From a virus: a stretch of 58,593 nt of DNA. The notes under the pieces are model-generated. The model was not told the origin of the DNA. It did no database searches and saw nothing but the letters and a program-made list of their open reading frames with translations. The translations under genes and the position numbers were made by a program. This document shows, piece after piece, positions 4,632 to 23,797 of this stretch. Every line of letters starts with the position of its first letter. The first letter of the stretch is position 1. The stretch spans positions 1-58,593 of IMG/VR virus record IMGVR_UViG_3300048833_000177, one strand, 5' to 3'.

Positions 4632-5384
4632 TCAGTGGATCGCAGCCGGACCAAGGCCCTTGGTGCCCTGGTCCTCGATGTATTTGTCGGCGGTCTCGCG
4701 CGCCTTTTCCTTGGCAGCCGCCGCGCGCTTCTGAGCAGGCGTCAACTGCTTGTCGGCCGGGGTCTCGAACGCAGCCGCATCTGCCGCCTTCTGTGCCTCG
4801 ATCTTCGCGCGCTTCTCCTCCGGGCTCTCCAGCGGCTTGATGCCGGCCGCCAGGCCCTCGACCCCGACGTTCGGCGTGGTCACCGGCGGCGGTGCGGGCG
4901 GGCCACGGCGCTTGCTGGCGCGACCCGGATCGTCGCCGCGCTCGGCCGCGACCTTGTCGCCCGAGGACGTCTTGTCGAAGACCGAGCCTTCCTCCGGCTC
5001 CGCGCCGCCGGCAGCCACCGTGTCGTTGAACAGATCGAGCTGATCGTCGAGGCCGAGTTGCTTCACCAGGAACATGAACTGGCGGATGACGCGCTGGCGC
5101 CGGCCGTCCGGCAGGCCGCGGACGTCGTTCAGCATCTTCAGCGTCTTCGGCTCGACGCGGTAGAGCTTGGCCTGGCGCTTCTCGTGCTCCTTGATCGCCG
5201 CTCGAGCGCTGGCCATCTCGGCGGCCGCCGTTTCCTTGTCGGCCAGCAGGGTGTCCGGCGTCTCGACGAACTCCTCGCGGAGCTTGTCGACCTCCTTCGG
5301 GAACTGCAGCAGCGCGTCGGCGGCGAGGTTCTGCGCTGCGGCGGCGTCGTCCTTCGGCTTCGTCTTCTTCGATGGTCGGGCCAT
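4632..5384 (-). CDS. Hypothetical protein, GapR-like helical segment
   Basis: 250 residues, strongly charged. Residues about 20-115 form long helices with the pattern AAIKEHEKRQAKLYRV then LKMLNDVRGLPDGRR and FMFLVKQLGLDDQLDLFN. This recalls the DUF2312/GapR family of alphaproteobacterial DNA-binding coiled coils, but the match is from memory and the protein is much longer than GapR. The rest is Ala/Pro/Lys-rich and probably disordered. If GapR-like, it would bind overtwisted DNA ahead of forks. Confidence in the CDS is high, in the family low. Confidence 0.7.
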   Translation of the reverse strand: MARPSKKTKPKDDAAAAQNLAADALLQFPKEVDKLREEFVETPDTLLADKETAAAEMASARAAIKEHEKRQAKLYRVEPKTLKMLNDVRGLPDGRRQRVIRQFMFLVKQLGLDDQLDLFNDTVAAGGAEPEEGSVFDKTSSGDKVAAERGDDPGRASKRRGPPAPPPVTTPNVGVEGLAAGIKPLESPEEKRAKIEAQKAADAAAFETPADKQLTPAQKRAAAAKEKARETADKYIEDQGTKGLGPAAIH

Positions 5385-5875: not shown

Positions 5876-6036
5876 GGGCGGCCACCACGTTCACCGTGAG
5901 ACAGGAGGCGCGTGGCGCGGTCCGACAGCCATGTTGCGGCGCGGATCACCGGCGCAGCTGGCGCCATCCAGATCGAAGCCAGCGTGGCGAGAACGCTCGA
6001 CAGGGCCAGCATCAGGATTGAGACGAGACCTCGCAT
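5872..6036 (-). CDS. Small membrane protein
   Basis: 54 residues. Reads MRGLVSILMLALSSVLATL followed by ASIWMAPAAPVI, one hydrophobic segment covering residues 3-30, then a basic tail rich in Arg. AAGAAGG sits nine bases before the ATG, and the stop overlaps the next start as ATGA, the same coupling used throughout this operon. Function unknown; the hydrophobic helix followed by positive charge predicts a single-pass inner-membrane peptide. Confidence 0.6.
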   Translation of the reverse strand: MRGLVSILMLALSSVLATLASIWMAPAAPVIRAATWLSDRATRLLSHGERGGRP

Positions 6037-6054
6037 GCAGCGGGCCCTTCTTGT

Positions 6055-6399
6055 TCAGGATTTGAGGGATGCGATTTCAGCGGCAATGCGAGCCTGCTCC
6101 GCCTCGAGCGCGGCCAGGCGCTCGCGGTGATGGGCTTCGTCCAGCCATTTCGGGCAATTCGGATAGACCGCGACCAGAAAGGCCGGGCCGTAGGCCAGGA
6201 TCAGGCGCGAGAACCCCGCCCAGGACGGCTTCGCGACGCCTTCAAGCCAGCGCCGCACAGTCTGCGACGACAGGCCGGTATCGGCGGCGACGCAATCCGC
6301 CGTCTTCGTCGGGTAGAGACGACGCACGAAGGCCACCGCCCGGTCGGGGCAGGCCTCGCCATCGTTCCGCCCAATCTTGAAAACGCTACGCTCAGACAT
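6055..6399 (-). CDS. Helix-turn-helix-like protein with C-terminal coiled coil
   Basis: 114 residues from the ATG at 6399, which has GGAG six bases upstream; in-frame starts at 6420 and 6549 only add low-complexity residues. The segment TADCVAADTGLSSQTVRRWLEG is a clear helix-turn-helix, and the C terminus (RERLAALEAEQARIAAEIASL) is a short coiled coil. The middle is hydrophobic (FSRLILAYGPAFLVAVYP). Likely a DNA-binding protein. No named family assigned. Confidence 0.7.
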   Translation of the reverse strand: MSERSVFKIGRNDGEACPDRAVAFVRRLYPTKTADCVAADTGLSSQTVRRWLEGVAKPSWAGFSRLILAYGPAFLVAVYPNCPKWLDEAHHRERLAALEAEQARIAAEIASLKS

Positions 6400-15963: not shown

Positions 15964-16535
15964 GCGACCTCCTGATCACGCGCGGCGCGAAGATCTCGGC
16001 CTGCGGCACCTTCCGAAGCCAGCTCTGGCGGCGCACAGCGCAGCACGGCGCGATGATCTTCATCATGCTGAATCCGAGCACGGCGGATGCGGAGCGCGAC
16101 GACCCGACGATCCGCCGCTGCATGGCGTTCGCGCGCCGTGAGGGGCTGGGCTCGGTGCATGTCGTGAACCTGTTCACGCACCGCTCGCCGTCGCCGCGCT
16201 CGCTCTGGGAAGGCTCCGACCCGGCTGGGCCCGAGGCGCTTTACGCGATCCGCGACGCCATCACGCTCGCCGATCCGGAGAAGCACACGGTCGAGATGCG
16301 CAAGGCAATCGGCCACGAGATCCCGTTCGACCGAATCGTCTGCGCATGGGGTGCCCTGCCCTCCGGGGCGCCCGACTGGTTCCGCATCATGCACAAGGAC
16401 CATGTCGCCGAGGTCGTCGCCTACGCCCGCGACATGGGCCGCACCCTCTGGTGCCTGGGGCGAACCGCCAGCGGCGCACCGCGCCATCCCCTCTACGTCC
16501 GCAATGATCAACCGCTGGAAAGGTGGCCGTCATGA
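15960..16535 (+). CDS. DUF1643 domain protein
   Basis: 191 residues. Matches DUF1643: CGTFRSQLWRR near the N terminus, FIMLNPSTADA, DDPTIRRC, VVNLF, and a C-terminal LGRTASGAPRHPLYV. Widespread in bacteria and phages, biochemical role unknown. The start is GTG, overlapping the preceding stop (GTGA). The near-complete set of family motifs makes this a confident assignment. Confidence 0.85.
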   Translation: MSDLLITRGAKISACGTFRSQLWRRTAQHGAMIFIMLNPSTADAERDDPTIRRCMAFARREGLGSVHVVNLFTHRSPSPRSLWEGSDPAGPEALYAIRDAITLADPEKHTVEMRKAIGHEIPFDRIVCAWGALPSGAPDWFRIMHKDHVAEVVAYARDMGRTLWCLGRTASGAPRHPLYVRNDQPLERWPS

Positions 16536-17074
16536 AGCCCCGCCTCTATCTCGACCTCGACGGCGTGATGGCCGACTTCGACGCGCACTTCCCGGCGGTC
16601 TTCGGCCTCGACCACCGCAGCATGGCGGACGACGCCATGTGGCAGACCATCAACGCGCACCCGAGCTATTTCCGGGACATGCCGCCCTGCCCCGGCGCGA
16701 TCGAGTTCTATCGGGAGATCGCGCACCTCGAGCCTATCGTGCTCACCGCCTGCCCCCGCACCAACTACGCCAACGCCGCGCAGCAGAAGCGCGCCTGGGT
16801 CTACGAGCATCTCGGCTCGCACGTCACCGTGCTCCCCGTCATGGGCGGCCACAACAAGCCGCTCTTCATGCACGCGCCCGGCGACATCCTGATCGACGAC
16901 TTCGAGAAGAACACGCGCGCATGGTCGGCGGCCGGCGGCGTGGCGATCCTGCATCGCGGCTTCGCCAGCACGCGCCACGCCCTGCGCGATCATCTCGGCC
17001 AGCGCGAGACTGAGGCGCGCAAGGCTCTCGACGCCGCCCGCCGCGCGCACGAAGCCGGGTGGGACGCGGCATGA
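16532..17074 (+). CDS. 5'(3')-deoxyribonucleotidase-like HAD phosphatase
   Basis: 180 residues. HAD motif I is YLDLDGVMADFD (D8 nucleophile, D10), motif II the LTACP segment, a lysine in MGGHNKPLF as motif III, and LIDDFEKNT as motif IV. Pattern and size match mitochondrial-type/NT5C 5'(3')-deoxyribonucleotidases of phages, which dephosphorylate dNMPs. It overlaps DUF1643 by ATGA. Together with the MazG-like gene at 23790 it suggests nucleotide-pool management. Confidence 0.82.
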   Translation: MKPRLYLDLDGVMADFDAHFPAVFGLDHRSMADDAMWQTINAHPSYFRDMPPCPGAIEFYREIAHLEPIVLTACPRTNYANAAQQKRAWVYEHLGSHVTVLPVMGGHNKPLFMHAPGDILIDDFEKNTRAWSAAGGVAILHRGFASTRHALRDHLGQRETEARKALDAARRAHEAGWDAA

Positions 17075-20114: not shown

Positions 20115-20399
20115 ATGCCGCGCGCGCCGATGCTTGCGCCCGACGACGGCGCACGCCGACCATCGCCACCACGGCGCGGTCTGTCGTGCGCTGAATCGGC
20201 AGATTACATCGGCGTGTCCGTCACCAAGTTCCTCGAGATGGTGGATGACGGTCGCATGCCAAAGGCGAAGGAGATCGACCGTCGGCGCGTCTGGGACATC
20301 CGGGCGCTGGACCGGGCATTCGACATGCTGCCAGGCGATGAAGACGCCGGCGCCTTGGATGCAGGGGCCTTGCCGCAGAAGCGGGAGATCGTGCTGTAA
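20115..20399 (+). CDS. xis: Excisionase-like helix-turn-helix protein
   Basis: 94 residues. Contains LSCAESADYIGVSVTKFLEM followed by VDDGRMPKAKEIDRRRVWD, the winged-helix pattern (HTH_17/AlpA type) of phage excisionases, and it lies directly before the integrase with a TAATG overlap. Family role: bends attL/attR DNA and steers the integrase to excision. Orientation and coupling support the call. Confidence 0.75.
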   Translation: MPRAPMLAPDDGARRPSPPRRGLSCAESADYIGVSVTKFLEMVDDGRMPKAKEIDRRRVWDIRALDRAFDMLPGDEDAGALDAGALPQKREIVL

Positions 20400-21541
20400 T
20401 GTGCTTCATGGCGAACATCAGACTGAAACACGTCACCATCGACCGCTCGGAAGGGCTGGTCCGCTATTACCTGCGCCTGCCCGGCCAGAAGAAAATCCGT
20501 CTGCCCGGCAAGCTGGGCGACCCCGTTTTCATGAGCGCCTATCAGGCGGCCATCTCAGGCGTGCCCGTGCCGCGCCAGCCGGATGGCGCCGTCGCCAAAG
20601 CGAACAGCCGCGGCACCATGGTATGGTTGGTCGACGAGTATCTGCGCAGCGCTGCCTTCAAGGGGCTGGCGCCGGCGACGCAGGGCGCCCGGCGCAACAT
20701 CCTGAAGGTCATGCTGAAGACAGCCGCCGACGTCCGCGTGGCCGACGTCACCCAAGACGAGATCAGGAAGGCGCGGGATAGGCGCTCGGCTACGCCGGCA
20801 GCCGCCAACACCTTCCTGAAGGCAATGAGCCACCTCTTCACCTTCGCCATCGAATACAAGCACGCCACGAAGAACCCGGTCGAGGGCGTTGCGCGGCTGC
20901 CGTCGAAGACGAACGGGCACCACACCTGGACAGAGGCCGAGATCAATCGCTTTCTCGACCACTACCCGGTCGGCACCATGGCGCATCTCTGTCTGTGCAT
21001 CATGCTCTACACCGGCGTCCGCGTGTCCGATGCGGCCGTCATGGGCCGTCAGCACATCAGTAAGGGCTGGATCAGCTTTCGGGCGCAGAAGAACAGCGTC
21101 GAGGTCGACATGCCGGTCGCGCCGGAACTCCAGCGCGCGATCGACGCGGTGCGTGTCTCGCGCAAGGGCCACATGCACCTGCTGATCAACGAGTGGGACA
21201 AGCCGTTCTCGGTGAAGGGCCTGGGCCAGCGCATGCGGAAGTGGTGCGACAAGATCGGCCTAGAGCATTGCTCAAGCCATGGCGTGCGAAAGGCCGGCGC
21301 GACGATCGCCGCTGACAACGGCGCGACCGAGCACGAGCTCATGGCAACGTTCGGGTGGAACTCGCCGAAGCAGGCCGCGCTCTACACCAGGAAGGCGAAT
21401 CGTCGCCGCCTGGCGGGGTCCGGCGCCGCCAAGATCAGCCTCGGGAAGGGTGAGAACGGGAACGAAATTGTCCCGCCGTCCGAGGGGGTGGAAACCGAGC
21501 GGGACAATCAGCCCGAAAAACGCAAGGAAATCAGTGCATGA
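20399..21541 (+). CDS. int: Tyrosine site-specific integrase
   Basis: 380 residues. An N-terminal arm-type and core-binding region (residues 1-170) precedes a catalytic domain with the full tyrosine-recombinase set: R208 in GVRVSD, K231, H294 and R297 in SSHGVRKAG, W320 in the H/W position and nucleophile Y329 in ALYTRKA. Role: recombination between attP and attB. The start ATG at 20399 overlaps the excisionase stop; an ATG at 20408 is alternative. The last 40 residues are encoded across an inverted repeat that may be an att arm. Confidence 0.94.
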   Translation: MCFMANIRLKHVTIDRSEGLVRYYLRLPGQKKIRLPGKLGDPVFMSAYQAAISGVPVPRQPDGAVAKANSRGTMVWLVDEYLRSAAFKGLAPATQGARRNILKVMLKTAADVRVADVTQDEIRKARDRRSATPAAANTFLKAMSHLFTFAIEYKHATKNPVEGVARLPSKTNGHHTWTEAEINRFLDHYPVGTMAHLCLCIMLYTGVRVSDAAVMGRQHISKGWISFRAQKNSVEVDMPVAPELQRAIDAVRVSRKGHMHLLINEWDKPFSVKGLGQRMRKWCDKIGLEHCSSHGVRKAGATIAADNGATEHELMATFGWNSPKQAALYTRKANRRRLAGSGAAKISLGKGENGNEIVPPSEGVETERDNQPEKRKEISA

Positions 21542-22246: not shown

Positions 22247-22422
22247 TGGTTGCGCGTAAGCAGCGCATCTTTCGGCTGGAGCCGAATTGGACCTTCCCGT
22301 TTCGAGTGCTGGGGAAGGACTGCATTTTTGTGGCGCAGCCGGTCTGGAATGTCCGGTGGACGCGCCTGCTCGACCGCAAGCAACGCCTCATTCGGGCGCA
22401 GCAGTTTAGGAGCAACTCATGA
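22246..22422 (+). CDS. Small basic hypothetical protein
   Basis: 58 residues, basic and aromatic (IFRLEPNWTFPFRVLGKDC, then WNVRWTRLLDRKQRLIRAQQ). Start overlaps the previous stop (TGATG) and the stop overlaps the next start (ATGA). No family recognised. Confidence 0.55.
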   Translation: MVARKQRIFRLEPNWTFPFRVLGKDCIFVAQPVWNVRWTRLLDRKQRLIRAQQFRSNS

Positions 22423-23036
22423 CCACCTCGATCGAAGAAGCCCTCCGATCCGGCGCGGTGCGCGGTGGGTGGGAGTTCTTTCAGGACGAAGGCTATTTCG
22501 GCATGTGGTGCGTGCGGGAGGTCGGCTCTAGCCGGTTTGGCGACGGCTTTCATGTCGCATCGCAGGAAGAAGCCCGCGCTCTTCGCAACCTCCTAGAGGA
22601 GCGGGATCGGTTGAAGGTGGAGCGGGACGAGGCGACAGGCCCCAAAAACGCGCCGGTGGCAGTAGCGTGGCGTTGGCGGTTCGAGCCCGATTTGCCGTGG
22701 CGCATCGTGGCGACGGCGGCCGGGGTTCCGACGACAAAGAGGTGGCCGCGCGCAGAGGTTCAGCCACTGTATCCCGAAGTGCCAGCCCCTATTCGCCTTG
22801 TCGCTCTGACCGAACGCCGCGCCCCCGCCGCCGAAGCCAAGTGCGACGCGGCTTTCGCGTTCATCGCCAAGCTAGTTCACATGCAATCGGGCCAAGGCTG
22901 GACACGCGCTGTCGTTCGCGAAGCGGCCGCCGAGTTCCTGCTGTCACAGGGCGTCACCGTCGAGCACAGCGCGGACACGACGCCAGAGATTATCGCCCGC
23001 GCCCTCACCCAGGAGACGAACGATGTCGGAGAATGA
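22419..23036 (+). CDS. Hypothetical accessory protein
   Basis: 205 residues with a mosaic look: an N-terminal part (WEFFQDEGYFGMWCVREVG, then GDGFHVASQEEARAL) and a short helix, a central segment (PVAVAWRWRFEPDLPWRIV) that resembles a short phage module found in Ea22-like proteins, and a helical C terminus. No function assigned. It overlaps the next gene by 14 bases. Confidence 0.62.
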   Translation: MTTSIEEALRSGAVRGGWEFFQDEGYFGMWCVREVGSSRFGDGFHVASQEEARALRNLLEERDRLKVERDEATGPKNAPVAVAWRWRFEPDLPWRIVATAAGVPTTKRWPRAEVQPLYPEVPAPIRLVALTERRAPAAEAKCDAAFAFIAKLVHMQSGQGWTRAVVREAAAEFLLSQGVTVEHSADTTPEIIARALTQETNDVGE

Positions 23037-23292
23037 GAAGCTGGTGGAGCGGTTGCGGGAAGCGGCCGACTGGCCCGAAGTGTGCCCCGTATCCGCGAGC
23101 GAATTGCGCGAAGCCGCCACCGCCCTCACCGCCGCACAGGCGAGGATCAAGATGCTGTCCGAGGCGCTGGCGTTCTACGCGTGCGACGGCGCCAACTGCG
23201 ACTGCTTACCGGGCGAAGAACAGAAAGACCGCCTCTACTGCGGTTTCGTAGCCCGCCAAGCCCTCACTAAGGATCAACCCCATGAAGCCTGA
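23023..23292 (+). CDS. Hypothetical protein
   Basis: 89 residues. A helix-rich N terminus (KLVERLREAADWPEVCPVS, then LREAATALTAAQARIKMLSE) is followed by a cysteine-containing segment (CDGANCDCLPG). This recalls fragments of Ea8.5/Ea22-type accessory phage proteins. Overlaps both neighbours by 11-14 bases. Confidence 0.6.
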   Translation: MSENEKLVERLREAADWPEVCPVSASELREAATALTAAQARIKMLSEALAFYACDGANCDCLPGEEQKDRLYCGFVARQALTKDQPHEA

Positions 23293-23797
23293 GAGCCCCG
23301 CGATGGACGCGCTGCTGGAAGCCGCCCTCAACGAATACCCGCAGGGGCTCCACGCCACGCATCGCGACTGCATGCGGGCGGCTGTCGAAGCTGTGGTTGA
23401 AGCATACGAGGCCGCCAAGCCCGTTGCGGTGGGTGCAGTTGGGTGGGTCAACCCCGCCGATCTCGACCTCTTGCGTGCGGGCCGGGATGACCAGACCTCG
23501 ATTTGGTCAAAGCCTTTCCCAGGTGCAGTGCCGCTCTCCCGTCTCGCCTCTCTGGAAGCCGCCAGGAGCGCGGAGCCGGTGGCGTTTCCTGTCGGTTGGG
23601 CTTTCCGCGAAGGCGACATGGTCGGCAAGAAGAGCGGGTCGTGGTGGGAAGGCAAGATCGTCGGGTGGTATTCGACCCGCGACACGCCCCGAGGCTATGC
23701 TATTCAGGCGCAGGTTTCCGGCGGCAACGGGCCGGTGCAGATCTTCCCCGAGACGGCGATCGTCTCCCACCCCACCCCGGAGGCTTCCGATGTCTGA
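23282..23797 (+). CDS. Accessory protein with C-terminal type II (R67/DfrB-like) dihydrofolate reductase domain
   Basis: 171 residues. The N-terminal 100 contain helices and a segment like other phage accessory proteins (VGWVNPADLDLLRAG, KPFPGAVPLSR). Residues about 106-160 closely follow the SH3-like type II DHFR: EGDMVGKKSG, then W, G, then KIVGWYSTRDTPRGYA, then PVQIFPETAI. By alignment from memory, K116 matches the R67 lysine 32, Q153 and I154 match Q67 and I68, and F155 replaces Y69. R67 is a homotetramer that reduces dihydrofolate and is insensitive to trimethoprim. Activity here is unproven; the barrel could be a structural relative only. Confidence 0.78.
   Translation: MKPESPAMDALLEAALNEYPQGLHATHRDCMRAAVEAVVEAYEAAKPVAVGAVGWVNPADLDLLRAGRDDQTSIWSKPFPGAVPLSRLASLEAARSAEPVAFPVGWAFREGDMVGKKSGSWWEGKIVGWYSTRDTPRGYAIQAQVSGGNGPVQIFPETAIVSHPTPEASDV

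Follow-up and report, generated by a model that had tools for sequence, protein, structure and literature searches.

DfrB enzymes are highly trimethoprim-resistant dihydrofolate reductases whose origin is debated. A study from 2023 that found 12 distant DfrB homologues described and tested phage homologues with additional N-terminal domains; its authors called the native function unknown and already proposed that proteins of this kind came before the resistance genes (PMC9835603). In that work, phage DfrB-H4 and the bacterial proteins DfrB-H5 and DfrB-H6, each of which has large extra domains, conferred trimethoprim resistance while phage DfrB-H3 did not; the extra domains of the tested extensions did not block resistance, and DfrB-H5 was still a tetramer with reductase kinetics like those of DfrB1 (PMC9835603). 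DfrB matches have also been reported from viromes (PMC7265639, 2020; PMC10580818), and eight were reported from lytic phages (PMC12466917). Both the arrangement of a phage DfrB barrel behind an extension and the idea of a phage source are already published, and the locus described here is a divergent example of this arrangement.

A DfrB barrel on a phage accessory protein

We analyzed a 58,593-base IMG/VR virus record, which we refer to as the window in the sense of this whole stretch of DNA. Its phage genes include those for large terminase, portal, major head protein, tape measure and repressor together with a RecT-like annealing protein, NinB, a DnaB-like helicase and an integrase. This gene set identifies it as a temperate tailed phage, and EBPR siphovirus 2 is 89% identical over one stretch of 1.8 kb. 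The gene of interest lies where the initial annotation had placed it, encodes a 171-aa product (Table 1), has a plausible ribosome-binding site at its start (AAGGATCAACCCC-ATG), and shares 11 bases with the ORF upstream and 8 bases with the ORF downstream. Around it runs a series of small accessory ORFs, with the integrase on one side and oppositely directed tail genes on the other. The downstream neighbor had been described as MazG-like, a label that found no support, as the ORF has no Pfam match at E<=0.01 and its PHROG matches are all uncharacterized. Another nucleotide-metabolism gene of this phage, a 5'(3')-deoxyribonucleotidase-like gene (NT5C, E 1.5e-12), is found at positions 16529-17074; neither ThyA nor ThyX was found in the window phage.

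Table 1. Coordinates of the DfrB gene, its neighbors and its functional parts in the window.
Feature	Position	Strand	Basis or remark
Tyrosine integrase (temperate phage)	20399..21541	+	Pfam Phage_integrase, E 3.5e-14
Overlapping upstream ORF, 89 aa	23023..23292	+	No family
Accessory protein with C-terminal DfrB barrel	23282..23797	+	171 aa; Pfam and R67 structure matches
N-terminal extension, about 102 aa	23282..23587	+	AlphaFold: mainly helical, low confidence
DfrB SH3-like barrel, residues 106-161, five strands	23597..23764	+	Pfam, AlphaFold, Foldseek
K116 = R67 K32, substrate/cofactor-binding lysine	23627..23629	+	56/56 other non-redundant homologues
W122 = R67 W38, dimer-dimer interface	23645..23647	+	56/56 other non-redundant homologues
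Loop V145-P151 (VSGGNGP)	23714..23734	+	R67 loop 2 residues shorter; H62 absent, S65 -> Pro
Pore motif V152-Q153-I154-F155 (VQIF)	23735..23746	+	F155 in place of Tyr69
Overlapping downstream ORF, 98 aa	23790..24086	+	Only PHROG families of unknown function

The initial annotation had read a C-terminal DfrB-type barrel from R67 landmarks in residues 106-160, and this reading was borne out throughout: GDMVGKKSG, W122, IVGWY, T135-P-R-GYA and VQI are all present, and K116, Q153-I154 and F155 do correspond to K32, Q67-I68 and Tyr69 of R67. Residues 96-160 match the R67 dihydrofolate reductase family (Pfam PF06442 DHFR_2; 59.6 bits, E 2.6e-16; cutoff 25), and residues 102-160 match R67 chains (1vie, E 6e-13), with R67 being the only match among solved structures. 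Compared with DfrB1, 27 of 51 aligned residues of the barrel are identical. With the NCBIfam model trim_DfrB, which represents the named resistance proteins, the window protein scores 60.2 bits and stays below the curated cutoff of 137, whereas integron DfrB1 as a control scores 159.5. An AlphaFold2 prediction (single chain, 30-row alignment) gave five strands between residues 113 and 162, with mean pLDDT values of 89-97 in blocks of ten across residues 101-160. A Foldseek search with this model returned R67 for all of its first seven matches (best 1vie, E 2.3e-6), separated from the next fold by about three orders of magnitude in E-value, and the model superimposes on 1vie with a TM score of 0.88 over the R67 chain and an rmsd of 1.9. 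As far as the fold is concerned, the initial annotation therefore withstood the check by structure prediction. Family membership, the barrel fold, the conserved pore residues (K32, V66, Q67 and I68) and W38 are established computationally; judged from its sequence, the gene is by descent a DfrB-family (type II) dihydrofolate reductase and a divergent member of this known family.

No homologue of the N-terminal extension was detected in the collections searched, either in close-relative searches with the whole protein or with the N-terminal part alone. The same architecture occurs in other phages: 54 of 89 viral DfrB proteins examined have more than 60 residues before the barrel (31 have 25 or fewer). 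Within one phage group of 30, the similarity among barrels is about 90%, but the 120 residues in front of them match at 0.31, with 0.19 for shuffled sequence. Because alike barrels follow unlike extensions, the barrel is a constant domain carried on exchangeable extensions, a pattern that the window protein fits. A "PVAW...PLY" stretch seemingly shared by window residues 53-86 and the extensions of three other phage proteins (L029, L004 and L009) was seen by eye only and, with no profile support for the window, was discarded. As a separate observation, the upstream ORF at 22419-23036 contains a "PVAVAWRW...PLYPEVP" stretch as in many phage accessory proteins and some DfrB extensions, with no profile match.

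Pore residues and possible function

We counted residue conservation over 57 non-redundant DfrB domains, comprising the window copy and 56 others. Invariant in all 57 are K32, W38, G40, V43, G44, Y46, T48, T51, G54, V66, Q67 and P70, and many other alignment columns vary freely. Among the 56 other copies, I68 is found in 55, and Tyr69 likewise in 55 with Trp in the remaining one, so that Phe at this position occurs only in the window. The window protein retains K32, W38, W45, V66, Q67 and I68 but carries the further substitutions E58Q and S59A; like most of its clade, it lacks S59 and H62, which are dimer-interface residues. A study by Strader et al. (Biochemistry, 2001) reportedly found that R67 Y69F keeps catalysis with Km values raised around 8-fold for dihydrofolate and around 20-fold for NADPH. 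Since this exchange is reported to raise both Km values in R67, the window protein is predicted to be a weaker enzyme, and F155, Pro65 and the longer loop together suggest that its ligand binding would be weaker than that of DfrB1. The roles of the pore residues and of W38 at the dimer-dimer interface have been described, and Y69L abolishes the resistance conferred by DfrB1 and DfrB-H5 (PMC9835603).

The explanation that we favor, with moderate confidence, is that the protein forms a tetrameric pore dihydrofolate reductase that provides the thymidylate synthesis of the host with tetrahydrofolate while the phage is replicating. Four C-terminal barrels would assemble into a 222-symmetric tetramer as known from R67, in whose single pore NADPH and dihydrofolate would bind (at K116, Q153, I154 and F155 in place of Tyr69) and the hydride would pass by proximity. 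The tetrahydrofolate made in this way would then serve host enzymes that synthesize thymidylate and purines during replication of the phage, and trimethoprim insensitivity would be a by-product. The tetramer, the activity and the physiological role of the window protein are inferred. Conservation of the pore lysine and the Gln-Ile pair across unrelated extensions argues for a ligand-binding tetramer pore rather than a bare SH3 fold.

The distribution of thymidylate synthases is suggestive only with regard to this folate role. ThyA was found in 5 of 40 DfrB phage records, all of them genomes of at least 76 kb, and ThyX in 0 of 40; both are absent from 35 of the 40, in counts that cover DfrB phages only. 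No FolA-type dihydrofolate reductase was found in the five ThyA-carrying records, which makes DfrB the only candidate dihydrofolate reductase in these phages. In the remaining ones, including the window phage, DfrB would need host ThyA for lack of a phage ThyA or ThyX. We count this absence from the window and the 35 records against the favored explanation, as we do F155 and the missing S59 and H62. Separately, Sinorhizobium phage phiM9 has a second ThyA-like gene, recognized by a partial match, that would be near DfrB and a dNMP kinase if the two ends of the genome were connected (147896-148246; 417-620), which suggests a nucleotide-metabolism cluster.

The frequent lack of an own thymidylate synthase would also fit a different reading, which we find doubtful though worth serious attention: The barrel could be a folate-, nucleotide- or protein-binding module with adventitious dihydrofolate reductase activity, and the mosaic N-terminal part could perform the phage function while the barrel tetramerizes it. 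The many proteins with long extensions (54/89) and the divergence of these extensions next to near-constant barrels are in line with such a module, and adventitious activity has been proposed before (PMC9835603). However, the 31 viral proteins with at most 25 residues before the barrel indicate that in many phages the barrel suffices by itself, and K32, Q67, I68 and Y69 are conserved beyond the apparent needs of tetramerization. It is improbable, in turn, that the window copy is a degenerating, catalytically dead member in which only the fold is kept. Its long branch (1.8), its VQIF motif as the sole one among 57, Pro65, the two-residue insert, E58Q and S59A would all agree with decay, but the frame is open, has a ribosome-binding site and overlaps tightly with its neighbors, K32, W38, V66, Q67 and I68 are retained, and relatives that keep VQIY likewise have E58Q, S65P and an altered residue 59. 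Finally, while integrons and plasmids are known to carry DfrB genes, recent acquisition of a clinical trimethoprim-resistance cassette by this phage is highly improbable, and the distance to every cassette gene already contradicts it, given that identity to any plasmid DfrB is only about 50%, that the trim_DfrB score is 60 bits against a cutoff of 137, and that its closest relatives come from a Rhizobiales prophage and from phages.

Relatives and a possible phage source of integron DfrB genes

A protein search found 25 annotated phage records with a DfrB domain, many of them already named dihydrofolate reductase, and a profile search found at least 116 IMG/VR contigs and 22 bacterial loci. The phage reservoir, which counts at least 116 viral contigs, exceeds the 12 distant homologues known from the 2023 study. 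In trees built on 57 alignment columns, in which the root of the family is not placeable, the window barrel groups, at supports of 97/93 and 96/97, with copies that come mostly from Rhizobiales phages and prophages, and it forms the longest branch of this clade (about 1.8). E58Q, S65P and a residue other than Ser at position 59 are common to the window and this clade. The closest barrel, with 60% identity, belongs to a Rhizobiales prophage (L106, AFS060926) and is encoded near an integrase, Erf, NinB and DUF1643. An association with DUF1643, seen at L006 and L106, was rejected as a general feature because it recurs in only 1 of 40 DfrB phage records, and so was an association with DNA methylases that published neighborhoods had suggested (only 8 of 40).

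Some loci deserve mention in their own right. Rhizobium phage RHph_N38 contains an unannotated DfrB ORF (L002:4956-5237) over whose first part a helix-turn-helix gene is annotated in another frame. Two different DfrB copies are located about 8 kb apart on a Polynucleobacter contig (JALRHB010000011.1; L115 and L126), and the Rhizobiales genome AFS060926 also has two (L106 and L112).

Integron DfrB proteins group with viral contigs in two places of the tree. DfrB1/3/4/10 group with viral contig L094 (99/98) and also with copies from Burkholderiales, which are seen as the original hosts (PMC11662351). In L094, the gene for this 69-aa DfrB (5986-6192) comes immediately behind a phage DNA polymerase processivity gene, with a large integrase close by, and is a candidate for a phage-borne relative of the clinical genes. 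Apart from this group, a P. aeruginosa plasmid carries a short DfrB flanked by arr-3 and catB3 (L020:474-674) that groups with viral contig L035:4381-4605 (98/83), which may reflect a second recruitment. On these groupings, a phage source for clinical DfrB is possible. We hold the wider idea only tentatively, namely that the barrel is an old phage domain, kept by itself in some proteins and as the constant C-terminal portion of mosaic accessory proteins in others, and that integron resistance genes were recruited from phages. If so, the window copy would show that Phe is tolerated within the natural family at the nearly fixed Tyr69. Natural diversity including the VQIF pore offers a means to test both the drug-free role of DfrB and the phage origin of the clinical copies.

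Comparison with described DfrB proteins

DfrB-H3 from Pseudomonas phage PS-1 and DfrB-H4 from a Vibrio phage resemble the window protein as phage-borne barrels that follow an unrelated N-terminal region, and at 167 aa the PS-1 protein is almost as long as the window protein (171 aa), but both carry VQIY instead of VQIF. We equate DfrB-H3 with the PS-1 protein (L009), as it appears from the Pseudomonas phage origin, the DNA methyltransferase nearby and the match of the published segment primers to L009. Compared with near-identical viral copies (e.g., L039 and L032), the frame of L009 shifts directly after VQIYPAK (about 5100-5195), which replaces the last barrel strand with an unrelated tail, and the published DfrB-H3 segment ends within this tail. 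The authors put its lack of resistance down to poor soluble expression (PMC9835603). From the reading frames, the inactivity of DfrB-H3 may instead stem from the frameshift and not be a property of its phage group, of which intact copies are present in IMG/VR.

Within the clade of the window barrel, the closest prophage relative L106 and Shinella L107 share the GPVQI form but retain Tyr69, have a shorter loop and carry other N- and C-terminal extensions. DfrB proteins of Rhizobium phages of the Schitoviridae, such as RHEph24 and RHph_Y2_6, belong to the same GPVQI clade, whereas they are stand-alone proteins of about 82-91 aa with VQIY from phages that both carry ThyA. From R67 and DfrB1, the window protein differs by Phe69, Pro65, a loop longer by 2 residues, the absence of S59 and H62, and its extension of about 102 residues, while it has in common with them the SH3-like barrel, K32, W38, W45 and V66-Q67-I68.
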